This document shows, in pieces, positions 4,131-64,000 of a DNA stretch of 64,000 nucleotides. The translations under genes were made by a program, and so were the position numbers. The notes beneath the pieces were generated by a model. The model did no database searches. It was given only the letters and a program-made list of their open reading frames with translations, and had not been told where the DNA came from. Each line of letters opens with the position of its first letter. Positions within the stretch are counted from its first letter, which is position 1. Location: contig NC_135561.1 of the NCBI RefSeq assembly GCF_964340395.1, positions 11,751,461-11,815,460 of the forward strand, given 5' to 3'. Source of the stretch: Glandiceps talaboti. Taxonomy: Eukaryota; Hemichordata; Enteropneusta; Spengelidae.

Positions 4131-4335
4131 GATTTTACAGTCTTCAGCTAGTTCTCAAAGCCTAATTTTTACTAATTACCAGACTGGTACACAGTGTGTT
4201 GACGTACAAGAAGGTATTTTAGTCATTGGAAAAATGATGCGATTTACAGTCTTCAGCTAGTTCTCAAAGCCTAATTTTTACTAATTACCAGACTGGTACA
4301 TTGTGTTTATGTACAAGAAGGCATTTTAGTCAGTT
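4131..4335. repeat. 113-bp tandem duplication, two copies
   Basis: The segment with TTACAGTCTTCAGCTAG, CTAATTTTTACTAATTACC and a GTACAAGAAGG(T/C)ATTTTAGTCA end occurs twice in direct order about 113 bp apart, with few differences. It lies just downstream of the BLOC1S5 stop codon and may be in its 3' UTR. Confidence 0.8.
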
Positions 4336-4451: not shown

Positions 4452-7400
4452 TCAAGTCTGTACATTTTTTAGTAAAGTTTTGTTCATTTCTTCATAGTGT
4501 TCATTGATGTCTTTCATTCTTTGTACATGTTCCTTATCTACAGCTATACTTTTCTCTCCTTGATGTTTGGTAAAGTCTGACCACTGTCGATATCTCTCAG
4601 TCTTCTTGTCTTTCAGGGGATCAGTCTACAAGACACGTACACAAATTTGTTACAGTGGACATATGGATAAGGATTGGGTATTTATGTTGGATTTATAATT
4701 TATATAAAAAATTTTATCATGGCTTTCTCTACTTGTGAAACAACATTGACCAAGTCCAATCTAACATAAATACCAAATCCTCATCCATAAGACCATTTTA
4801 AATATGTACAATATACTTATATATTCAATTCCACCTCCTTGAAAAAGCCTGCTAAGGTGTGATGATCCTCAAGTCATTTTCAAGTTGATCCATGTCATTT
4901 TTGTACAAAATTGAAAGATATAATATTAATACCACATTTCACAGACTTTTGTATTATATGTGGAATCACCTTCATCTGATCTTTGGTTGAAACAGAAATT
5001 CAAATTATTCAAGGCAAATCTGAAAACATTCATATTTCGTCAATGTTATTGTTGAAGTGGTTGTGTCTTAATTTTTATGGATATAATGTTAATGTCGATG
5101 CATGTCTTCTCTAACATTACAATTCTCTTCTGGTATTTTTAGAATAGTTGATTACATAGTAAGAATTTCCTGAATATTTTTATGCAATGCCATATAATAA
5201 ATAAGTCATCGGATCATTTACAAGTTATACTAATACCAGATCTGAGTTCAGTTAGTTGCAAGTAAAGGTTTATACTCACAGCATTCCTTTGTTCTTCTTT
5301 TACCAGAATTCTGGAACACATTCTGTTTGCACCAGTTACTGATTTTAACAAAACAAAGAGATTAAAAATTCTAAAAAAATTAAAAATATCTGCTTTATAG
5401 GTACGCTTTTCACAATAAAGTGTGTTTTCAGATGAGACATAAATGGAAATCAAATGTTGGAAGCACGGTGAATCCATTAAAGCAATTCTAAATTTTTGAG
5501 CAATAAAATAAAATTATAAGTTTCACCCTTATATGCACTTTTGGTTTCAGCATCTTTCCATTAGCGATATATTGACTGTTTCAAACCTTGCCATAGAGGG
5601 CTCCAATTTCTAGTCACATTCTATATATATAGGATTGGTTGGGTCTTAGGAAATATACAAATAAAAAGAACTACTGGACTTTTCATGTACTTACATTGTT
5701 CTCTGAGATCTGGTAGTTGCTACTTACATTGTTCTCTGAGATCTGGTAGTTACTACTTACATTGTTCTCTGAGATCTGGTAGTTACTACTTACATTGTTC
5801 TCTGAGATCTGGTAGTTACTACTTACATTGTTCTCTGAGATCTGGTAGTTACTACTTACATTGTTCTCTGAGATCTGGTAGTTGCTACTTACATTGTTCT
5901 CTGAGTTCTGGTAATTGCTAACATACATTGTTCTCTGAGATCTGGTAGTTACTACTTACATTGTTCTCTGAGATCTGGTAATTGCTACTTACACTGTTCT
6001 CTGAGATCTGGTAGTTGTTTTTCCATCAATGTCACATTTTCAGGAATAAATCTTTCATTTGTATCAGTCATCTGATTTAGAATCTTCTTCAGTCTGTCAT
6101 ACTCTCTGTCATTTCTTTTGGTCTGTTAAAAACAGATGAGGCATAACTTAGGAACAAAATCAATAGTTTGAATGAGCAGATTTTGAACCATTTTAATGGA
6201 ATCTGTTTTATACCCTTAAATACAAATATTTTTGTATTTTTTTAGGTCTGCTGTACATTAAGGGGTAATGTATGCTGGGAAACAAGCATTTAGTTAGGAG
6301 CTTCACATCTCTGTAAACAATAGCCTTAGTATTGTCAGTGCATGGATTATGTAAGGTGTGAAGATCCTAAATATGTTTGTTTCCCAGAATGCCTCATCCT
6401 GTGCAAGTCTCTTCCATGACAGAGCTCACTGAATAATCAATATGTGTGTGGGTTTTTAAATTAATTAGATGTTATCCCCCAATGTTATTCTTTGTTCAGC
6501 CAAGGAAAATATGAGTGATCTAAGGGGCCTTGTCACTACAAGTCGCTAGATGAGTAATGACAACCCTTAGGTCATGAGTGTTATCTGGCTGAATGAAGAA
6601 AAATATTGGAGAATAACATAATTATACCAGTGCCAGTATTAAATGTCAAAGAAAAATCAGGGAAAGCAATGGCAATTTTGAACGTGTTGACTCGTAATTT
6701 CAAACACAGCTGAACCAGTGATATTACATGCACATTGTCGTGATGTGTATATATTCCATACTTTTTTTTTGTTCAACTTGGCTCTAGCATGGCTTATTGG
6801 ATAATACTTACCTCAAATTCCTTGACAAAATATTTGAGTTCACCTTGAAGTATTGGTCTGTGGTCCAACAACCGTGCATGTATCTGACCCGTGTCTGTTT
6901 GTACATTAGAAGGACATAGGTTTATATTGCATGTTTATGCACGAGTCAATGTAATGCCCGAGGGACCCCGCCTCGGGTGATACGGGACAAATGTGGGGGA
7001 TTAGACCGTGTTTGCCATGAAACAATGCCCGAGGGGGTGGGGCAATTGCCTCATATTGACCTCCCTAGTCATTTTCACGGACGTAAAAGAGTGGTTGTGT
7101 GTCAGTCAAAATTTCTGAATGCCCCACCCATTGGGGTGGGGGAAATGTTGGGAGTTTTACTTGTTTTAGGTGGGGATTTTCCAGAATGTCTTGCCCCAGG
7201 GGGTGGGGTATAATTTCACAAGACTAATTTCCAAATCCCCCACTATGCCCCGAGGTGGGGAGGGTGGGGGTTGACATTGACTCGTGCATTATACACAGAT
7301 AAACAAAAATAAATTCCTACTCATTACTATAGCTGTCAACCATTTAGCCCTGCTTGCAGACGGTGTACGGTACGCGATACTGACAATGTCCCTCGTAAGG

Positions 7401-8003: not shown

Positions 8004-11100
<3,097 letters not shown>

Positions 11101-16577: not shown

Positions 16578-19500
16578 CTAGTGATGTTTGGCAGCTGATA
16601 ATGTTGCCGTGGTAGCACTAATTCCTGAGGTGGTTGTAGATGTGTTATCAGCACTCCCCCATAGATCATAGGCATCAAACAAGTCCATCAGACCTTCGTG
16701 TTCAGCCAGAGAAAACGGGTAATCGTCCTCCATGATTGGCGGAGACAACTGTACAAATGGCATATCAATATCATCACTACTTGTGTGCTGGTCCTCCGTC
16801 TGTAGAAGTAGGGTTCGTTCTAAACTCAGAGGTGATATGTCGTCCTCGTCTATGGTAGCTGATTTCAGTGGGGGGTCACCTGTACAAGAGACAGCAAAAA
16901 AAAAAACATCTATGAAACTGGGCATGTTGCCATCCACACTGAGTCGGCTCAGATACAATGCAGGACCCACACTCATGCATTCCACTGAGTCCAATGCTTG
17001 TTTTGAGCTCTGGCTCTCACTTCAAATTCCCCCTTTATACTTTGTATTTGACAAATCAGAATAGCCCATCAGCTGACTGACAACAATGAAATGCCAAGAC
17101 ATGACAGATTTGTACATAATGGAGGTGGCAATCCAGTTGCTCAAATAGAGGTACATGTTTTTAACGAAATCTGTAAAATATGAACAAAAAACTTGACATT
17201 TTCATCAGCATTCATTCATGTACCTCTAGAAATGCCTGGATGTAAACTTCCGTCATCACAGACAGGTCATGAAAGTGGCAGAACTGCTAGGTGAGGAGAG
17301 GAACTTATTGATTATGATTCCAATGAGGAAGTTAACCTCCAGGGTCACACAAATGTCAAGTATCAAAATGGTGAATTCAAACTTACCTTTGAAGCTATTG
17401 GGTGAGGAACTTGTTGATTCTGATTCCGATGAGGAAGCAATGCTGCTACTGTCATTGTCAGAACGAGCCTCCTCAGGACATAGATAGACTTCTATCGGTC
17501 CCTTTGTACTTTTCAGCCAGATTTGAATACTCTACAACAAGACAAACAGCAGTGGCATGTTTTATTAGGGACTGGTTGATATGAAGCTGAGGTCAGAAGA
17601 ATCTATCTATGTTTTAAAACAACTTATTTAATTATGTACACAGTATAGAGAAATTACATCCTCTTTCCACATACAAACACTGAAAATATAGACGGGGAAA
17701 TCAAACATCTTTTTTTTCCTTTAAATTTATGATATTACACCACACAAACTTTCCAAATACCTCCTGAGGTATAATAAACAAAATACAACATACAGGACAA
17801 GTACAGTAGATTTGAAATACAGTAAGTAAAGCAAATCAAGCCTTCTTCTTGATCACATTTTAATCTGGTTGCATCAGCAGCAACCATGTATCTGTCAGCA
17901 TGTACCTCTCTTGTATGTTGACTGATATTTAGCTTATTGCCCAGTTATGAGGGCTCTAGTAGATGTCTATTACCCTGAGGACTGTTGCATAGCAACTCTT
18001 TCTCCCAAGGCTACACGCCAAGGATAATAGTTTTTACATACATGTACATAACAGCACAAAGGGTAATATGACATCTACTAGTGCCCAAATAAGGCCAGGC
18101 AATAAGTGTTTTATAACATGTCACATTTTCAGGCACATATTCTTTCTGTGGTCAATGCAAATCACAAATAAGACTCCTGTGACATTAGAAATAGGACCCT
18201 AGGGAAAATAAGTGCCCTCTGTATGCAAATTAAGGGTACTTGACCATCCCATGTGATGTGATCTGAGCCAATCACTGAAGGCTATATGAAATCAATATGT
18301 TATACATGACATTATTCTTACCTCTGTTGGGTCAGGCACTTCAAGTCTTGTTTCTGGTGGTGCCTTGATTGCAATAACTGTTTGTTCATTAAAACTTTTG
18401 ATTCCTCTGATGTCTTGGTAGGTAACGTAGGCATGCGTAAGAACGGTTAAGGTGCAAACATACACATCAATCAATTTATTACCAAGCAGGCTTACTTTCA
18501 AAATATAATTCCACATTTATAAATAATACCTCGAAAATGATGGTGGAGGGTGTATGGTTAGGAAGGAAAAAACGAGCAGACATGAACGTGTTGGGGATAC
18601 TTTCAAAATCAGAAATATATTTTTAATTGGCTTTGATGCCCTAGAAATGACAATTAATGTCAGAAGAATATTTCAACCCATATATAAATATATAAGGGGC
18701 TAGACAGCTCTCCAGGGAGGGTTTGCACAAAAGGAGAGTTTTCAATCAATGTCACCAAGTAATAATAATAATGTTAATAATGTTGGTTTCTTATATAGCG
18801 CTTTCCCACTCCGTGCTCAAAGCGCTTTACAATTATTACCCCTGGCTCGGATCAGAACAGCACAACGGCCCTTTAGTCTTCCTCAACTCCCCGGGGAGCA
18901 TACAATCCATTGCAGCCATTTAAGCGCATAGGATTAAAGCCTTCACATTGCAACCTACATCCTACCAGGTCCCCAGTTATACAGCTGGGTTGACTGAGGC
19001 ACAGTCGTGGTTCAAATCTTGCCCAAGGACTTTAGCCACTCAGAAACAAACAGCAGGCAGCGACGGGGCTCGAACCTGCAACCTGTAGATTCCAAGCCGG
19101 TCACGCTAACCATTCACCCATCATGACTCCACAGTACAAGAAAGGGTGTACTTTTTTATGATGAAGTGGTACGAGAAGGGGTTAATAAGCCCAGCATCAT
19201 CACCCCCCCAAAAAAACCAAAAAAACAAAAAAAAAACAACCAAAAACTTTGAAAACAGTTCATTCATTGTTGGGGTTCTAGGTATGCACAGTTACTCATG
19301 GAGATAGAGCCACCCCACCCCTACCCCCAAATTCTAAACATTGACTAACACTTAGTGTGTACAAATCATATATGTATTATAATATAGAAAGGATATCTGC
19401 CATTGCCAACATCTTCTGTTAACATTTTCAACTGCAGTGTACAACTCTTGATTAAGTCATCTAGTCGGTTTTCTTTGGCTTCTAAATCTACTAATTCTGA

Positions 19501-22500
19501 AAGAAAAGAAAACAGAAACCATATTAACGTCAATTTGATGGACACCTGAGAAAACGCTACCATGTGAAGTATTACATCAAACATAAGCCATAAATATTGA
19601 ATATACACCCAGGTCGTTTTACGTCACAACAACGTGTGTTTATGTCACTAGTTTTGCCGTGTACAAAATATGAGTCAAAATGGTCAAAATTACCATTACT
19701 TTCCCTGATTTTTTAAAAATATTACTCGCACTGGTATAATTATGTTATTCCCCAATATTTTCCTTCATTCAGCTGGAAAAATAGTTGTGACCTATGTGTT
19801 GTCACTACAACTCATAGTGACAAGGCCCCTTAGGTCAGTCACATTTTCCTTGGCTGAACGAAGAAAAATATTGGGGAATAACATCTAAAATGCACTAGTC
19901 ACCAATATCGCACTTGTCTGGTATACAAAACTACTAGTATACAAAAACATGGTTCTAAACAAAAGAATGACCCCATTTAATTTTTCCAACTCCACTGATA
20001 AGATGACACTAATCTGACACCATGGGATTCAAACATCGAAGTTTAAAGGCCAAGGTTTCAATCCCAGGTTCTCGCATTAGTGTTATCTTGGCAGTGGAGC
20101 TTTATGACTCCATCAATAACAAAGTAATAAAAAAGGCCATGGGCATCAAACATTGGGGTTTAACAGATTTCTGTGAATATCTTACCTGAATGCAAATCAA
20201 CAGTGTCTGCACTTATACTGCCCTCTTTGTTATTTGAGGCTAACGAATTCCCTGACCCTCTGGAAAAAAAAGAGAGCATTTTCTTTTATTTTTCCAGACA
20301 AAGTAAATTCATTCTGTTACAATGCTTCATTCATTTCAGTTGTTCACATTAATATTAATTTGCATATCATTAATTACACACAATTAGGGACCCCAGACTT
20401 CAAGTATTGTCTTGACTAAAACGAACTGCTGTTTGTTTTCAACTCGTCAATATGTAGCCAAGGACAGAGAACCAGGGTCAGTAGACTGTCCTACTTTTTT
20501 GGCTGGCTGGTGACTGAGTTACTTTTTTTAAAGTGGTCCCTTGATACAGGAAGTGATATATCACAGAGTCCCCAGGTAGACGATAAACGAACAAAGCCCA
20601 CATGGAGTGGTGTGATGTGCAGTAGTGAGACCATAGGGGTCAGCAATCAATGAGAACAAAAGGATGGCAATGCTGAATGTCAACCGAACAAAAGCACTCT
20701 CGGCAGTTCTCACGATTTAAGATTCACTGGAGTGGACTTCAACTAACCTACAAGGGTCATTAAACTGTCTGCCAATCAGATTCAATTTCATGTTTCTTAT
20801 GTACTATTATGTTTGGATGTAAAGAACTCTCCACTAGGCAGAGTGCCCTCTAATGACACCCAAATTTTGTTGTTGTGAGTGAAAATGATAAAAACTAGCA
20901 TTTCTAGCATTTCTTGTAAAGTCACCACATAATAAGAGATCGGGGAACACCAAATTTTAGTGTGTCACTAGAAATTGTGTGCGTCAGCAGCATGTCAAAT
21001 TGGCTTAGATGACACACTGCCACAAGGCTTACCCCAAAAAGGGAAACAAATACAGATTTTTTAAATGTAATATAAACTCATACAACAGAAATAAAATATA
21101 ACTATATTATTTCTCACAGCAATTCTTCTTTGATTTTAATAATGTATCTACTATCTAGGAAATACAAGAGTCGTTGAATGAAATGGGTTCAAATGTTTTG
21201 AAAAAAAAAGAACTTTTGAAAAAAAATTAAAAGCAAATAATAATATAATACATGATAAAAACAGTACGAATGAAAAAACTTAAACGCATTGAGAAAAAAA
21301 AATAAAACCAGACTTACTTCCATTCTATATTATTTTTTGATTTCTTGGCAATTAAATTAATTCCTTCTAAGACATTTGTGATGTCATAGATGCGTCTCTT
21401 TTGGACTTCTAAAACTTCAGCTGCATAATTTAAATCTAAAACACCCTCAGGAGCACTGCGTAGTAAGCCTACAAACTTCTTCGTTAGTAGACCCAGGGAG
21501 GTGTCGTATCTCGTCCTCTCTGTTGGTGACCGTGCTGTATGAAAAAAAAAAATTATTGACAATTTTTGATAAGTTATGGTATACTGCAAGGTAGTCATGT
21601 TCTTTGTTTTTCGCCAAGAGACTTTGCTGTCTGGTTGGGCAATGTTTTGCATACACAGTCACAAATACTTCCTTATTGGTTTGTGCTTGCTTCTATCAAA
21701 CAGAGCCAGTGAACACTAATAATGAAACAGGCAGTACCATCATCTTGATACTTGGATCAATAAACACAAACACACAAATGAAAACAAACTACATATAACC
21801 ATAGTCCCTCCACAATGTAACCACAGACCCTCCAGGGCTCGAAATTAACATTTTCTTTGGCAGTCCTAGTACTAGTAGGCTACCAGTTTCAGAAATTGGT
21901 AGCCCAAGGATGGTGACCTGTAGTTCGATATTCCTGAACTGAAAACATAGTTCCTCTATTTGTATGATTAAAATACTTTCATGTCCGTAAATCATTCCAT
22001 CCATCATCACACAATCAGTGGTAGCCTGAGTGGCCTATCAGCTGTAAATTATATGGTAGCCCCATGACCAGAATTGGTAGTCCATGGGTATGGGACTACT
22101 GTTAATTTCCAGCCCTGCCCTCTATGGAACACATTGTCAGCACTAAAGGTACTGAAATCTGTAGTCATATGAATTCTTAACGATATGTGGGTGACGTCAC
22201 ATTAGTTATGATGTCATTCTGTTGTCTTTGTTCAGTGCAGTGTTGGTATTTTATGTTTACACACTTAAACTTCATGCATATAATATACCAGGCTACTAAA
22301 CAGTGTGTTACGTTACTCCTACAATTTTGTATTCATTTGGAATGGATTGGCATGTCTGAAGAGTTGCCCTATCCACCCATATTGTAGTGTCGAAGACACA
22401 AATGCGTGTGATGCAGTATTGATGATGTCTGATGAAATGAACTCTAAATTGTAACGATATCAGTCCCTGTGGTCTCTCCTAGGAATTTCAACAAAACACC

Positions 22501-36300: not shown

Positions 36301-39300
36301 CTTTGAATGCGGTGTATCTTCAGCTTTATTTGGAAATATTTCGGCTTATTTCATGTTGACTTCAGATGACTTCTATGATTATTTTGCCTTCGGCGTATTT
36401 CTGTGTTGTACAATAACTTGTAAGCAACCGACCGATATGTGTAGGTGTTCCGCATGATTCAATCCTGGCCAGGTTTTCACCGTTAGTGTTATCTTATTTA
36501 TAGTGCCAGTGGGATTATACTTTTGTATGGGACCAGCATTTTCTATATTTCTACCAGATAACTGTATTTCGCACCCAAATTGTACAGTTCTTTTAAGGGG
36601 AATGCCACTCCATGAAATAAAAGTATTTTAATTAAGGCGCCGTCAATGAAGTTATTTGTTTGCTTCTCTGCGTACAGACGTTGAGGTTTGTTGGAAGATA
36701 TAGAAAAAGCAAATACATTTCGTTTTACTTAAAATTTCTGCACAAGACCGTTCAAATATCTTCAGAATGACTTCACTTATTTGATAACTGTATTTCTCAC
36801 CCAAATTGTACAGTTCTTTTAAGGGGAATGCCACTCCACGAAATAAAAGTATTTTTATTAAGCCTCCGTCAATGAAATTATTTGTTTGCTTCTCTGCGTA
36901 CGGATGCTGAGGTTTGTTGGAAGATTTAGAAAAAGCAAATACATTTCGTTTTACTTAAAATTTCTGCACAAGACCGTTCGAATATCTTCAGAATGACTTC
37001 ACTTATTTCTAAATAGTTGATTAAGACAATCAAACTTTGGACTCTTATATTTCACCAGTGTAGTAGATTTACAATGTAGGTACAAACATAAAATGAATGA
37101 ACAGAGAGGTGAATTTTACATGACATGCTAATATTGTGTTGTTTGTCTTTCTTGCCCGTCTGCCTTGTTGTTTTGGTGAAATTAATTGATGGAGCCTAAC
37201 TGTGGATTCGGGAGAATCATTTCCTAATTTTACATCAATAATTTTTACTTGGTTGCCAAGAAACACCAAACTAAAACTCTTTTTCACCTCAGTCGTTCTT
37301 TCAGTGATGCACTGATGGGTCTTAGCAGACCTGAATATTTATAAATGTATCAGATGTCGATAAATAAATAAATAAATAAATAAGTGAATTAGATGCACTC
37401 TGAATATTGATGACTCATAAGAGCTTACTTCCTCCAGATAAATAGTCATGAATATTCAGTGTACATCTAATAAATATTCATGTCTGCTAAAGGTGCATGA
37501 GGTAACAGTATACCACTGAATTAATAATATAGACTGAGGTGAAAACGAGCTTCAATTTGGTGTTTTCTTGATAATCCAGCGAAGTATAGTTGAGGTGAAA
37601 TTATCAAATGACGCTCGAAAAACACAAATTTTATGAAAATACCTGTATTTCCTGGAATGGCATTAACAAAGAATTAATTAACTACCATTATTAATCGAAA
37701 CATGCCTGATCACTAACTAACAAGCAAGGCTCTTTTAAAAACATACACAGGGTTCTTTCACACACTTTGTGTTCATGATTTCATGCATGCCCATATGATC
37801 AGTGACCATTTCCCAATTTTAGCCTTCATTTTTTTCAAATCTAGACTTCTATTATTTGATGCCTACATGCAAATTGGCCAAATCTTTGATAACCGGAATA
37901 TGCCACATGTTTTTGATATTTTTCAGGTCCTTTTTACATCTGCTTACACAGTCCACAATACCGTATATCATGATGCGAACTATGAGTCCCAGAGTCATGC
38001 ATAAATTTGTCTTCACGTTTGCCGTGGTTTACATGTCAGGAGTTCATATCAGTCAGCAGATGAAAAGTGTCAACATTTACCTAATGGATCACATTGGGTA
38101 AGTGAATCATTGATTTAACATTTGTGTAAGTAACACATTGGGTAAGTGAATCATTGATTTAACATTTGTGTAAGTAACACATTGGGTAAGTGAATCATTG
38201 ATTTAACATTTAGTGTAGGTAACACATTGGTGAAGTGAATCAATGACCTAACATTTAGTGTAGGTAACACATTGAGTAAGTGAATCATTGACCTAACATT
38301 TAGTGTAGGTAACACATTGAGTAAGTGAATCATTGACCTAACATTTAGTGTAGGTAACACATTGGGTAAGTGAATCAATGACCTAACATTTAGTGTAAGT
38401 AACACATTGGGTAAGTGAATCAATGACCTAACATTTAGTGTAGGTAACACATTGGGTAAGTGAATCAATGATTTAACATTTAGTGTACATTGTAGGTAAC
38501 ACATTGGGTAAGTGAATCATTGACCTAACATTTAGTGTAGGTAACACATTGGGTAAGTGAATCAATGACCTAACATTTAGTGTACATTGTAGGTAACACA
38601 TTGGGTAAGTGAATCAATGACCTAACATTTAGTGTAGGTAACACATTGGGTAAGTGAATCAATGACCTAACAGCATCTGTTGTGCTATGCTAATGGAGGG
38701 ATGTCGGAGCCATCATTTGTTTTTCTTGACCACCAAGGACCAGATTCAATAATTGAATGAGTGTCTTGCATTGAGTGAATAACACACGTCTTACTTCAGT
38801 CATGTCTATAAGAATATCCTGTGGAAAGTTGACAAAATATTTACATTTAGTGAAATTTTATTTCTTATTTTTTGCAGCCCCATGATGGTTATGACAGAGA
38901 AAGTGACTAGTCTGGCCTTCAGTCTAAGAGATGGTAAGTTAATATTTATCATTCAGTGTATTTGTCCAGTCAGACTTCGTAATTACCACTGTAAACTTAC
39001 ATATGATTTTGGGTATTGAAGTAGCATGATGTCACATAAGCTCAATGAATGAACTTTGTTTATTTACATGGGGGGGGGGGTTCATCCTAAACGAACAAAG
39101 TATAAAGTCATGTGCAACATTGTGCGACCATCCCTAAATTGCACAACTTTTAAATCTTGTAAAGAAGATATACTGCAGTCAACATTCAGCCATTTGTTTT
39201 TATTTCCTGCAAGGGATTATGGGAATATATAATGACATCACATTTGTTACAGTTGTGTTGACTTGACACGTTTCGTAGTTGTCAAGAGAGCTATACATAC

Positions 39301-42300
39301 AACACATGTTATGCTATGCTAGAACCGGGTAGTCTGTATTGTTATATAGGTCTTAGATGTGTTATACAGAATGAACCTTCCCACCATCTAATAGATTATC
39401 AGTCAGGGACCTGACTACAAGCAAGCACAAATAAGGAGAGAGAAACATCTACCCTTGAGTCATAAGAGTCTTTGTATTTCCAAAATATGTACCGTTACTA
39501 TTTTGTTGACATCAAATATTGATTTTTTTCGCTAGGTTTAACAAGAGATGAGAGTGAGTTATCACCACTACAGAAAAAGATGGCGACGAAGTAAGTCTTT
39601 CATATTTATTTTGTTTTTATACTGTAAGTACAATTGTATATTATTCACCAATATTTGCTTTGTTCAACTGAGGAAAATATAAGTATGAGTGAACTAAGAG
39701 GCCTTGTCACTATGAGTCACTAGGCAAATAGCAATAAACCCTTAGGTCACGAGTATTTTCCTGCTGAGTAAAGAAATATATTGGTGAATAAAATAATTCT
39801 ACCTTCTCAAGCATAATTTAATGAAAAATCAGGAAAAATAATGGCGATTTGTAATGTTTTGACTCATATTTCGAGCACCGCAAAACCAGTGATGGGCACA
39901 CAAGCTGTCGTGACGTACAATGACCAGGGTTTAAAATCCATATTTTCTGTTCAAAGACAATAGCTTGGCTTGATTGTCATTAAATATAATCTAGTTCATA
40001 TACGATATGAGTTACGATAACTACGATCATCTCCACTCACATACAGTCAGTGTCCATAAAACTGTTAATCTGGCTAAATTGCCTGCTGGGCCAAGGGTAA
40101 ACATTGCATGTCAGTAGTAACCCATCACAAACTGACAGACAGTTGTAATTGGTTACTTTCTTCAGATAATTGCTAATTGCAATAATATTTACTAAGGAAC
40201 TCTACATATATCGTGGGGACGCGGTTACATCATCATGTTTATTTGAACGCTGTCAGGGGTAGCACAGATTTCTGTGCTAGAGTAAAGACTTTGACTCTGC
40301 ATGAGTGGAGATGATCGTAGTAATTCTAACTCATATTGTGTAGGAACTAGACTACATTAAACATGATGTACACATTAGTAGGTGGGTTTTACGTATTAAT
40401 GTGACCATTTGGATGACAAATGGATATTTATTTTGGATTTTTTAATTTGATAAAATAACCTTACTATATTTTTCTACATGGGAAAAGCAATGCGAAACAG
40501 TATACACAAAGTCCTTGTTTGTGATTTAATAAGTTGCAAAACACTTAGCAACTTAGTTTGTTATGGTACATACAACAAAATACATTTTACACATTTGTCA
40601 ATGTTTCGCAATTTATTGAGGACTTGGCGCATTTTCTTTCACAATGTATTTCCAAGTAGAAAAACAAAGTAGAGGGGAACGCCACGCCAGGAAATAGAGA
40701 CATTTTCATAAACTATGGGTTCTAGAGAGTCATTTCATGATTTTACATCACCTACAATTACTTATAATTACAGGTATCTTTGCTAAGGGCTATTGCATTA
40801 TGGGAGATGGCAGATACTTTATTCAATGGTTGAACACTAGATATCTACGAAAGTTGTTTCACACTGAAGTCTATAGCATTTTGTCCTCATGAATAATATA
40901 TTTCTACTCTCTCCCATGATGCAATAGCCCATAGCATAGATACCCTATAAATGCACAACATCAACTTGATGTTTCTCTGACATCGCAAATAATTGTAGGT
41001 GATGATAAGAAAATGTCTCTATTTCCTGGAGTGGTGTTCCGCTTTAAAAATCCAAAGTAACTAGCTGTATAGAAGAATTGGATTAAAACCACACCAGAGA
41101 TAAATCGGATTAATTATTGCAATTTGAGGAAAAGGATGGATGCTTGCTGTTTTTTTACTCGACAGTAAAACTGTTTTTGTGATTTCATTCACAGGAGAAT
41201 GCCAACAATTTTAGAATATTATAGCTACATATTTTATTTCCAAGCCCTTGTGGTGGGTCCAGTCTGTTTTTACAACAACTACATAGATTTTATTGAAGGC
41301 AGGCATATTGTTCCTTATGTTTTAAAAACTAAGGACGGGAAAGAAATTGTAGTGCACAAAGAGCCTCCAGTGTGGGTGAGTAAAAAACCTGATAGCCAGT
41401 AGTGTTTTTTAAAAATATGTATTTATTTCAGCCTGAACAAAATGTGACAAATTGTTCTTGAAATATGGTTATCACGTAAGACTTTCTGAGGTCAAGGCGT
41501 GAAATGAAAAAAATCAGCACTTCAGCAATGTATGCCAGTAAATCCTACCAGTAACATGTAATGTGTAGCTGTTCTATTACTTGTACTAGGTAACTGGGAA
41601 AAAAATTGACGGATGCGGTTCATACTACCCACAAAAGAAAACTTCCAATGTACCACACCCTTTATTGCTTTCATTCACAGACTAATCAGTTCTATATTTG
41701 GACTGTCGAAGGGAAGTAAGGTAAACCAACACAGGTCAATATCACTTATACTGTTTTCTTTTTCTGTCTTTTTTTTTCTCTCTCTCTCCCTTTTTCTCTC
41801 TCCTACACTGGAATTGTGATTTCTTCTACCAGAAAGTTGTTTTTGGAAAACTCCTGTTTAGCATAGCTATGGCTGCCATTCTACTGAAACTGGTACCCAG
41901 ATATCCGCTTATGGGTAATGTCAGTAAGTATGAACATTCTTTGTTTTAAAGTTTTATTGTAAGCACATTCCAGGCTTTGAATTTAGCTGTCACCTTGAGT
42001 CTGATGGCCACTGAATTTTTGACTGTTATATCTCATGTCTCACCCTTCAAAGTCTAAGCTTTCACAGCTAAATATGTTAGTACGCCCTCAAACAATTACA
42101 AGCTGCCATTGCCCAGCAACAAATTGACCAATCATAGAGTTCCTTTTATACTATCCATGTCAGCTGTTTTATCCTAACATGGCTGCCTCCAACATTGAAA
42201 TTAAAGAAGGTTGAAAAGTAATTTGAAATACACGACCTTAGGAGTAAAAATTAGACAATTCAGACAGTTTTGGATCATCACAGAATCAACAACAAGGTAT

Positions 42301-42741: not shown

Positions 42742-45636
42742 TTGGTAGGTAAAACATACCCAAGATCCTCCTTCCTCCCATCCTACATATTTTAGCAAGA
42801 TGTTCTGATGTACTTAGGTCCAAACTTGTGGTAGTACCATCGAATCTAGAAATGGATACCTTTACCGATGTATCCCTTCTGTATTGGGGTTCCCAAATTT
42901 CCCCTACTGTTGCAATTCACACAAATATTTGCAAAAAATCACTCAAAAAACTTACATGTAGACAAACTCAAAATGTACACAAACTCAAAACGCAATGACA
43001 GTCTCACATTTGCCCCCATACCCACCCCACACATGCATAATCACACGCAATCACTAAGACAGGACTTATGCAGTGTTACACTCTCTGATTTTACCTGTAA
43101 AACGGTATGTATGTATGTCTGCACCAATATAGGATACCACGGTTATTGCTGTGTTCCTTTTTATTTCCATTCAGCTGATGCTGTCAACAATGCATCGGGT
43201 CTTGGATTCAATGGTTATGATGAAAAAGGCACTGCGAAATGGGATCTGGTAACAAATATTGATGTCAAAGGCTTTGAGGTACGTTTATGGGTTTTCCCAT
43301 CTCTTTGTTATTGTCTTTGTCTCCTCAGTTCATTTTTCCCTCTCTGTTTTTGAGTTTCCACTGTTGGCAACAGTTGCAAAAGATGAATTGATATGATGAA
43401 GATAATTCATAAATTTATGTATTACTTCTGTGTTCAAAGTGCTGTGAATTCATTCAAAGTGCTGTGAATCTCATGCAGTATTTAATGATTTTCATCACTG
43501 ATATTTTTCTTCAGACGGCAACTAGCTTAAAAGTTCTCATTGACTGTTGGAACAAGCAGACCAATGTTTGGCTACGATATGTGTGCTACGATCGTGTTCC
43601 CTTCCAAAAGACGTTATTAACATTCATTTTGTCGTCAATGTGGCATGGTTTTTTTCCTGGCTATTTCTGGACATTCATACAAGGTGCCTTCATAACTGCA
43701 GCTGGCAAACGGGTAAGTGAACTGTGTAACAAAATAGTAAGATTTTATGTAAACCTTCATGCATTGTCCTTGAGAAATTGTTTGATGGAACCCACTATTC
43801 TACATAGGCATTGAGATAACTCTGTAAATCATAGGGTGGAACCCAGTACGTTTTAGTCCCAGTGAGAACCCTGATTATTAAGTGAAATCAAAGGGTTGAA
43901 CTCAGTACTCCATAGGCCCAGTGAGAACCCTGATTATTAGGTGAAATCATAGGGTGGAACCCACTACTCTATAAAGGTCTGGGGAGTACCCTGATTATTA
44001 TAGGTGAAATCATAGGGTGGAACCCACTACTCTATAAAGGTCTGGGAGTACCCTGATTATTAGGTGAAATCATAGGATGGAACCCACTACTCTATAAGGT
44101 CTGAGTAGAACCCTGATTATTAGGTGAAATCATAGGGTGGAACCCACTACTCTATAAAGTTCTGGGTAGAACCCTGATTATTAGGTGAAATCATAGGGTG
44201 GAACCCACTACTCTATAAAGGTCTGGGTAGAACCCTGATTATTAGGTGAAATCATAGGGTGGAACCCACTACTCTATAAAGGTCTGGGTAGAACCCTGAT
44301 TATTAGGTGAAATCATAGGGTGGAACCCACTACTCTATAAAGGTCTGGGTAGAACCCTGATTATTAGGTGAAATCATAGGATGGAACCCACTACTCTATA
44401 AAGGTCTGGGTAGAACCCTGATTATTAGGTGAAATCATAGGGTGGAACCCACTACTCTATAAAGGTCTGGGTAGAACCCTGATTATTAGGTGAAATCATA
44501 GGGTGGAACCCACTACTCTATAAAGGTCTGGGTAGAACCCTGATTATTAGGTGAAATCATAGGGTGGAACCCACTACTCTATAAAGGTCTGGGTAGAACC
44601 CTGATTATTAGGTGAAATCATAGGATGGAACCCACTACTCTATAAAGGTCTGGGTAGAACCCTGATTATTAGGTGAAACCATAGGGTGGAACCCACTACT
44701 CTATAAAGGTCTGGGGGGTGAACCCTGATTATTAGGTGAAATCATAGGGTGGAACCCAGTATTCTATAAAGGTCTGGGTAGAACCCTGATTATTAGGCAA
44801 AAACCTACTACTCTATTTAAATAATTGTTTAAATCTAACTTTTTTGGAAACTGGAAAATGTGTATATAGCCCTGATAAACAAATCCTGCCTTATTTTTTC
44901 TTCTGGGTTCTTAATATTTTTGGCACTTTGTAAAAATTACCTAACTTCCCACTAACGTTTAGAATAGTGAATAATGATTTATTACCATAAAGTAATATTT
45001 TATTTGGTGTACAGTAGCACAAATGAACCAGAATATAAATATTGTTGTTGTAACTTGTTCATGTGACTGATAATGACATAATCTTGTGCCCATCGTTTCC
45101 CTTTCAGATACGGCAAAACATCAGGCCATACTTCCAGGGGTCAAAGGGCACAAGAACATTCTATGACATCGTGACTTGGTTTGGTACTCATATCGCGTTA
45201 GCTTATCTCATCCTACCATTTACATTACTGAAGAATGATGTCATCATAAACTATTATTCGTAAGTGAATCCTGTTTTTTCAACTTGTATTATGTTTACCG
45301 ATATGTTACTCAGTTCTGTGCAGAGTGTACAATATTATTACAACTATTAAAGTCATTTTATCTAACAAAACAGTTTTTTTTTTAAAACTTTCTATTTGTA
45401 GCCAGTACAGCTGTAATGATAATTTATAATTTGCTATTTTTTCCAACAGGTCAATGTATTTTTCAATTCACATCATAGCCCTGTCTGCTTTACTATGTCT
45501 TCCCATGAAAAAACCACCAACAAAGAAAATCACTGCAGATCAAGGGATCATTGAGGATGTCAAAGCCACTGGAAACGGCCATCTTGTCGTCAAAGCCAAT
45601 GGTAATGGAACCCTGGACGCTAAGAAACGACAATGA
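28316..45636 (+). CDS. MBOAT2-like: Lysophospholipid acyltransferase, MBOAT1/MBOAT2 type
   Basis: ER multi-pass enzyme that re-acylates lysophospholipids (Lands cycle). Exons: 28316-28381, 32579-32724, 37927-38097, 38878-38933, 39536-39590, 41195-41375, 41833-41923, 42452-42553, 43175-43278, 43515-43712, 45108-45259, 45450-45636; 1509 nt, 502 aa with all phases closing. Several hydrophobic helices are visible from residue 24 on. Family blocks: GPMMVMTEKVTSLAF (128-142), RMPTILEYYSY (166-176), DAVNNASGLGFNGYDEKG (about 291-308), WNKQTNVWL (336-344, expected catalytic Asn337) and SSMWHGFFPGYF (364-375, expected catalytic His368). These match human MBOAT2 (DAINNAAGFGFRGYDENG, WNIQTALWL, SAIWHGVYPGYY). 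The C-terminus KKRQ fits a KKXX ER-retrieval signal. The exon 3 donor is copied in a 13-unit array. MBOAT1 versus MBOAT2, and so substrate preference, cannot be decided. Confidence 0.95.
29090..29165. mobile_element. Family C foldback element, partial copy 2
   Basis: GGGACAATTGTCAGAATCGAG and CTCCGTTTGCAAG match the right half of the element at 7343-7446. In MBOAT intron 1. Confidence 0.5.
30347..30390. repeat. (CAA)n microsatellite
   Basis: About 14 CAA units in MBOAT intron 1. Confidence 0.93.
30774..31117 (+). mobile_element. Inverted-repeat element, family A, complete copy
   Basis: It starts AAGCCTAAAAAAAATAGTTG..TTGGTTCCGGTTACC and ends GTGTAACTGAAACCACACAATT..TTAGGCCT, inverted copies of each other. 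The interior of about 280 bp (AACTGTTCTTCCAATCTGTAATGGCTGTAC) is shared with 54243-54636. No transposase, so non-autonomous. In MBOAT intron 1. Confidence 0.8.
31576..31898 (+). mobile_element. Inverted-repeat element, family A, diverged copy
   Basis: It begins AAAAAAATTATTTGGTTCTTGTAACCC and ends GTGTTACCAGAACCACAATTTTTTTTT, the same inverted ends as the family without the outer AGGCCT. The interior is largely different or decayed. It lies 460 bp from the complete copy, in the same orientation. Confidence 0.6.
32847..32866. repeat. Poly(C) run
   Basis: About 20 consecutive C just inside MBOAT intron 2. Similar runs occur at 25753 (C), 12480 (G) and 51350 (G). Length in the assembly is unreliable. 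Confidence 0.85.
34578..34650. repeat. 36-bp tandem repeat, about three copies
   Basis: Copies of ATC.GATTGGTTTGAAAAAA followed by AATGCA(C/A)TCA, near-identical, in MBOAT intron 2. Confidence 0.85.
36556..37007. repeat. 226-bp tandem duplication
   Basis: Two direct copies of a 226-bp segment, from ATAACTGTATTTC(G/T)CACCC to CAGAATGACTTCACTTATTT, at roughly 95% identity. The unit includes GGGGAATGCCACTCCA, the end of the family E foldback (40674). It looks like a recent duplication inside an older element in MBOAT intron 2. Confidence 0.9.
38090..38680 (+). repeat. 44/45-bp minisatellite, 13 copies, starting on the MBOAT exon 3 donor
   Basis: Copy 1 begins with the last 8 coding bases of exon 3 (CACATTGG) followed by the donor GTAAGTGAATCATTG. 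Twelve further copies fill the start of intron 3 at 44-51 bp spacing. Twelve of the thirteen keep GTAAGT; the fourth reads GGTGAAGT. Most units also carry GTGTAGGTAA or GTGTAAGTAA. Reading past the true donor meets TAA at once (GGG TAA), so use of an inner donor would end the protein. Confidence 0.95.
39645..39930 (+). mobile_element. Family B foldback repeat, copy 3
   Basis: TTATTCACCAATATTTGCTTTGTTCAAC and its inverse AAAGAAATATATTGGTGAATAA flank a centre with AGAGGCCTTGTCACTATGAGTCACTAG. The conserved tail ends GCTGTCGTGACGTACAATGACCAGGG. In MBOAT intron 5. Confidence 0.8.
39989..40352. mobile_element. Foldback element (family D), copy 2
   Basis: Inverted repeats of about 65 bp: ATCTAGTTC..ATATGAGTTA then CTACGATCATCTCCACTCA on the left, TGAGTGGAGATGATCGTAG..TAACTCATAT..GAACTAGA on the right. 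The interior GCATGTCAGTAGTAACCCATC..CAAACTGACAG is shared with 14661-15077, although the terminal repeats differ. In MBOAT intron 5. Confidence 0.8.
40674..41042. mobile_element. Near-perfect foldback element (family E)
   Basis: Left GGGGAACGCCACGCCAGGAAATAGAGACATTTT and right AAAATGTCTCTATTTCCTGGAGTGGTGTTCCGC are inverted at about 30 of 33 positions. The inner arms also pair (GGGCTATTGCATTATGGGAGA with TCTCCCATGATGCAATAGCCC). Nearly the whole 369 bp can fold on itself. Fragments occur at 36597, about 37640 and 62700. In MBOAT intron 5. Confidence 0.85.
42585..42738. repeat. (CAGA)n and (CA)n compound microsatellite
   Basis: A CAGA run at about 42585-42628 and a CA run of about 75 bp at 42664-42738, directly after MBOAT exon 8. 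The open frames it gives on both strands are not coding. Confidence 0.95.
43804..44810. repeat. 61-bp minisatellite, about 16 copies, in MBOAT intron 10
   Basis: Near-identical 61-bp units containing GGGTGGAACCCACTACTC, TATAAAGGTCTGGGTAG and AACCCTGATTATTAGGTG. It starts about 90 bp after the exon 10 donor. Inner copies are nearly identical and edge copies more diverged, the usual sign of ongoing homogenisation. The collapsed length in an assembly may be wrong. Confidence 0.95.
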
Positions 45637-53635: not shown

Positions 53636-53852
53636 GTGTGCATGTTTGTTTGTTTGTTTGGGTGACAAGCTTGTCCATGATCGTACGTACGTACGTACGT
53701 ACGTACGTACGTACGTGTACATACGTATTTACATATGTGCATGCGTATGTATGTATGTCTGTCTGTCTGTCTGTCTGTCTGTATGTGTGTGTGCGTGCTT
53801 GCGTGCGTATGTATGTATGTATGTATGTTTGTTTGTTTGTTTGACTAGCACA
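53636..53852. repeat. Compound tetranucleotide tract with (ACGT)n
   Basis: TTTG, then a self-complementary (ACGT)n run of about 35 bp (53682-53716), then GTAT and GTCT runs and a final TTTG run. The open frames here are translations of the repeat. Confidence 0.93.

Positions 53853-54951: not shown

Positions 54952-64000
<9,049 letters not shown>

Follow-up and report, generated by a model that had tools for sequence, protein, structure and literature searches.

A 13-copy minisatellite in an MBOAT-like gene whose first unit spans a putative exon-donor junction

Here we describe a tandem array in an MBOAT1/2-like gene whose first copy combines the coding end of an exon with the putative 5' splice site that follows. 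The array is likely a minisatellite that arose from a duplicated exon-intron junction and was lengthened on the intron side, with the first donor used and the additional donors passive, which would make it a mirage as known from amphioxus. The window, i.e. the whole stretch of 64,000 nucleotides analysed, covers positions 11,751,461 to 11,815,460 of contig 14 and has a G+C content of 35.5%; the assembly comprises 47 contigs with a total of 590,416,875 bases. The array and its immediate surroundings comprise the following features.

37927 to 38097, plus strand: coding exon of the MBOAT1/2-like gene (exon 3 of the preliminary description), ending in GG; predicted from its open frame, the acceptor at 37927 and the donor at 38098.
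38090 to 38672, plus strand: 13-copy tandem array with units of 44, 45 and 52 bp, the first unit comprising 8 exonic bases and the donor (TRF, unit alignment).
38098 to 38103, plus strand: authentic 5' splice site GTAAGT, predicted from frame continuity with 38878; U1 duplex energy -11.1 kcal/mol (12-nt site).
38142 to 38655, plus strand: 12 downstream donor copies, 11 with GTAAGT and 9 at the true donor's U1 score (U1 scoring); first bases at 38142, 38186, 38231, 38276, 38321, 38366, 38411, 38456, 38508, 38553, 38605 and 38650.
38878 to 38933, plus strand: next MBOAT-like exon, predicted from splice sites and frame, with donor GTAAGT at 38934.

The preliminary description claimed a 13-copy array that starts on the last eight coding bases and GTAAGT, with 12 copies keeping GTAAGT, and both TRF and the unit alignment confirm it; anatomy, exon phase and copy counts were as stated. 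The copies lie head to tail, and TRF assigns them a score of 879 with a period of 45, 12.7 copies and 91% matches. When the array is cut at CACATTG, eight copies measure 45 bp, two 44 bp and two 52 bp, and the last is truncated at 31 bp. The extra 7 bp in both 52-bp copies is the insert TACATTG. The "44/45-bp unit" given earlier thus describes most copies and omits these two, and the earlier extent of 38090 to 38680 keeps its start, with the end moved to 38672. A 13-fold array of a 45-bp unit at 91% needs no shuffle control; what chance could explain is its position on a donor, rather than the array itself.

Copy 1 opens with CACATTGG, the final 8 bases of exon 37927-38097, and continues with GTAAGT, 14 bases in all, with the donor G at 38098. 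The array takes up 575 of the 780 nt of the following intron. GTAAGT is found in the donor register of 12 of the 13 copies, or 11 of the 12 beyond the authentic donor. Copy 4 reads GTGAAGT at this position, and copies 5 and 6 have A, not G, immediately before the donor. GTAAGT occurs 15 times in the array in total, with a second occurrence in three copies. Later copies also contain CCTAACATTTAGTGTAGGTAACACATTGG before GTAAGT, a branch-like CTAAC and an AG. The units were set aside as micro-exons by eye, given the short distance from A to AG and the lack of a pyrimidine tract ahead.

The MBOAT domain is found by Pfam in later exons of the same gene on the plus strand, at 41169-41402 (27.2 bits, cut-off 27) and 43413-43814 (40.3 bits). 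A structure-sequence search with the region 43413-43814 returned lysophospholipid acyltransferase 7 (E 0.00024) and one chance-level match. Exon 37927-38097 itself matched no Pfam family, and its predicted coding status rests on the open frame, splice sites, phase and position before the MBOAT exons. It ends in GG, and exon 38878-38933 opens with C and then CCC ATG, so that splicing from 38098 would give Gly-Pro across the junction. The frame at 38090-38101 reads CAC ATT GGG TAA, with the TAA at 38099-38101, which rules out the array as coding sequence. Any downstream donor would carry the GG GTAA of copy 1 into the message as GGG TAA, an immediate in-frame stop. Since this holds for every downstream donor, the first donor alone would be productive among the 13 copies. 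We regard a 121-aa open frame on the minus strand (38151-38516) as a by-product of the 45-bp period. Two further repeats lie in or near the gene. Upstream of exon 37927-38097, a 226-bp unit is present as two head-to-tail copies that are 95% alike (36557-37008), and a later intron contains a 15-copy minisatellite of 61 bp (43865-44797), which begins about 150 bases past the donor at 43713 without touching it.

Donor strength alone would not account for use of the first donor, because nine of the 12 downstream decoys equal its U1 duplex energy; the remaining three score -6.4 (two copies) and -6.2 kcal/mol. A second, weaker donor-like site is present in 12 of the 13 copies (U1 -6.7 to -8.3). Hiding of the decoys by RNA structure was likewise rejected: all 13 sites are predicted to be mostly paired and the true donor is not the most open of them. 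In the shortest of the three folding windows used, its 9-nt site is unpaired with a probability of 0.022, and those of the 12 copies with 0.005-0.1. Nor does the strong hairpin predicted across the exon-donor junction, described below, favor use of the true donor. In experiments with duplicated donors, the intron-proximal one of equal donors is often preferred, and wrong copies would therefore be predicted to be in use unless exon definition dominates. One suggestion of the preliminary description was that the outermost donor wins and that arrays of this sort are tolerated for this reason. As a prediction this fits the sequence, in which a downstream donor would lead to an in-frame TAA, and it fits the undisturbed splicing reported for amphioxus mirages. 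The array amounts to a natural 13-way test of donor choice among near-equals, with wrong choices marked by an immediate stop codon.

Variation among the copies carries marks of turnover. Copy 1 is identical to copy 2 and copy 5 to copy 6, while copy 3 is mixed, its first half resembling copies 1-2 and its second half most of the others. Copies 9 and 11 have the 7-bp insert in common, so that a 52+45 pattern in copies 9-10 is repeated in 11-12. The identical neighbors, the mixed copy and the repeated pattern show turnover by local duplication or exchange. Changed cells, counted by hand from the copy alignment, number 2 of 78 in the donor motif vs 22 of 493 in the rest of the unit (Fisher p 0.76). 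The donor motif thus shows no excess of conservation over the remaining bases, and high identity throughout accounts for its retention; most simply, the copies would be young and similar over their whole length. Within the array, TRF rows with 60-62% matches give a shorter period of about 16 bases, a hint at an older, smaller duplication. The exon (38072) and copy 1 share the 7-base match AACATTT, 45 bases apart, which may come from an earlier, larger duplication; 3 of the 10 bases between this match and CACATTGG match the unit. The idea that the unit tail is a relic of the right flank was rejected, as its local score of 4 was equalled or exceeded by 67% of random 24-mers.

The preliminary description also placed a second donor-based array in a different gene. 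It is present on the minus strand, again with its first copy on a putative donor.

5688 to 6016, minus strand: companion array of 10 copies of 33 bp (one of 34), with about 24 exonic and 9 intronic bases (TRF).

Nine of its 10 copies have GTAAGT, and the first copy lies on the putative donor 5992 of exon 6122-5993. The gene is called Muted/BLOC1S5-like from a Pfam Muted match at 4452-4625 on the same strand as the array. Exon 6122-5993 does not join in phase to the exon at 4625, which leaves at least one intervening exon unlocated. The true donor reads AGT/GTAAGT and the nine further copies AAT/GTAAGT (one AAT/GTATGT). Against U1 the copies score -5.1 (one -1.9), weaker than the true donor at -6.1.

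The Muted and MBOAT matches come from a Pfam scan of 20 stretches, in which 9 had a match at or above the cut-off, 3 only below it and 8 none. We read the gene content as that of an animal. Other genes with matches were as follows.

8513 to 8716, plus strand: deaminase, below the family cut-off; taken, with the next, for ADAT2.
9326 to 9532, plus strand: deaminase, above the family cut-off.
18292 to 18516 and 21314 to 21658, minus strand: E2F, above the cut-off.
19366 to 19623, minus strand: E2F, below the cut-off.
58942 to 59130, 60677 to 60865 and 61328 to 61618, plus strand: gamma-glutamyltranspeptidase.

A long TGATGA repeat lies between the gamma-glutamyltranspeptidase exons (59398-59574). 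Rfam and tRNA scans of the window gave no hits. A DNA search of the same genome matched one place, the locus of the MBOAT array itself, in a search that skipped common words and so leaves uniqueness unproven. One 24-letter unit pattern had no exact match in prokaryote genomes or IMG/VR contigs, as expected for an animal intron.

We propose that a small tandem duplication of DNA straddling the exon end and its donor would have seeded the MBOAT minisatellite, which slippage or unequal exchange would then have lengthened. The junction would have been copied since it happened to lie there, with no purposeful copying of donors. Growth would have been on the intron side, leaving copy 1 to provide the exon end and donor, and the exon would pair with the nearest donor. 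The array would be tolerated because of this intron-side growth, an intact first copy and splicing with the nearest donor, and the additional donors would probably be passive decoys that are not used and not under selection. We give very little chance to the alternative that the repeated donors are functional, either by bringing extra U1 near the exon for exon definition or a block on early polyadenylation, or by producing a regulated unproductive splice form through the stop. Retention of GTAAGT in 11 of the 12 downstream copies, the nine copies that match the true donor's U1 score, and the stop that any downstream donor would introduce are consistent with such a role. Against it, the donor motif is not conserved beyond the other bases of the unit, and the BLOC1S5-like copies score below their true donor.

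The preliminary description also suggested that exon-donor junctions seed tandem duplications in this genome. Preferred seeding, for example through R-loops, pausing or a quasi-palindrome that provokes slippage, seems unlikely to us, and the placement of arrays does not establish it. Seven minisatellites in the 64 kb have a unit length of 30 bp or more and 3.5 or more copies (starting at 5688, 15473, 38090, 43865, 48553, 49507 and 60923), and two of these start on donors. In a test set up after the fact, with the donor number an estimate (15 putative donors were listed), random placement gives two or more in 0.4%, 1.5% and 3.5% of cases for 20, 38 and 60 assumed donors, which speaks for a preference. 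Counting acceptors along with donors gives 1.8%, 5.3% and 11.8%, respectively. A set of 10 arrays, which adds those at 4134, 34575 and 36557, gives 1.7-12.6% for donors but 6-33% for donors and acceptors. Arrays of 1-6-base units or built of them had been left out beforehand (e.g. 53682-53840, 57597-58091, 59398-59574 and 61853-62010, whose longer periods of 9-40 bases arise from a short motif). Also left out were rows overlapping listed arrays and units below 30 bp with 2 to 3 copies (11073, 12038, 42956, 43433, 50390, 55670 and 60155). The test is compatible with both the presence and the absence of a real donor preference. The occurrence of such arrays in several amphioxus genes also favors preferred seeding, while the absence of GTRAGT on either strand from 8 of the 10 listed arrays argues against it. 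A local structure at the MBOAT junction also bears on this question.

38074 to 38104, plus strand: predicted RNA hairpin of 13 bp (two G-U pairs) and a 5-nt loop, spanning the authentic exon-donor junction (folding).

The predicted energy of this hairpin is -15.8 kcal/mol, and the left edge of the array, 38090, lies in its loop. Of 31,986 31-mers sampled from the window, 27 have a fold at least as stable, and 26 of 3000 random GT sites reach its energy. Among the 15 putative donors examined, the MBOAT junction alone falls below -8.0, and none of the 27 other GTAAGT sites outside both arrays attains the hairpin's energy (lowest -7.1). It is missing from the inverted-repeat listing, which we attribute to its two G-U pairs. 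The BLOC1S5-like junction reaches only -1.4 kcal/mol, which rules out an exon hairpin as the common seed of both arrays. We give the hairpin little weight, as it is a post hoc observation and has no counterpart at the companion array. It is quite improbable, in our estimate, that donor-junction arrays recur in an animal outside the cephalochordates, with 5' splice sites as general hot spots of minisatellite birth and the exon-proximal donor winning among about a dozen near-equals. A limited literature search found no report of mirage-type arrays outside lancelets. Should such arrays be frequent at donors here and the host be no amphioxus, exon ends would be hot spots of repeat birth beyond the one described lineage.

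Intron gain by tandem genomic duplication, described as duplication of AGGT-bearing exon segments (PMC3443670), resembles the MBOAT array in that a tandem duplication copies a splice signal. In that account, however, a new intron forms within an exon, whereas the MBOAT array lengthens an existing intron. Nor does a duplicated AGGT supply both splice sites of a new intron: the unit contains the donor TTGG/GTAAGT, but the acceptor TGCAG/CCCC (38878) falls outside the array and by eye shows no likeness to any part of the unit.

Amphioxus mirages are minisatellites that duplicate exon/intron boundaries with splicing reported as undisturbed, and are known from Adh3, troponin C, the globins BflGb6 and BflGb9, and PGBD5 (PMC3087553, PMC3902484). 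One paper describes duplicated 5' and 3' boundaries in the globin genes, where regular splicing seems undisturbed and array length varies, and cites Adh3 (PMC3087553); a second reports PGBD5 arrays with units of 60 and 108 bp that abut splice sites, and refers to troponin C (PMC3902484). Unit lengths given there are 10-72 bp for Adh3, 60 and 108 bp for PGBD5 and 150-160 bp for the globins (PMC3087553, PMC3902484), a spread that takes in sizes like the 45 bp found here. Length variation is reported for the amphioxus arrays, while the MBOAT array is known from one assembly and has its internal marks of turnover alone. The BflGb6 array lies on a 3' boundary rather than a donor, but its neighboring copies are homogenised and those at one edge are distinct, as are copies 1-2 here. 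In these mirages the terminal unit holds the real junction and the splice signals recur in many units. The terminal unit of the 38090-38672 array likewise spans an exon/intron boundary, putative through the frame continuity of 38098 and 38878, and the splice signal is found in many but not all units (12 of 13). By its anatomy, and with the boundary as predicted, the array would belong to this already known kind as a further mirage.
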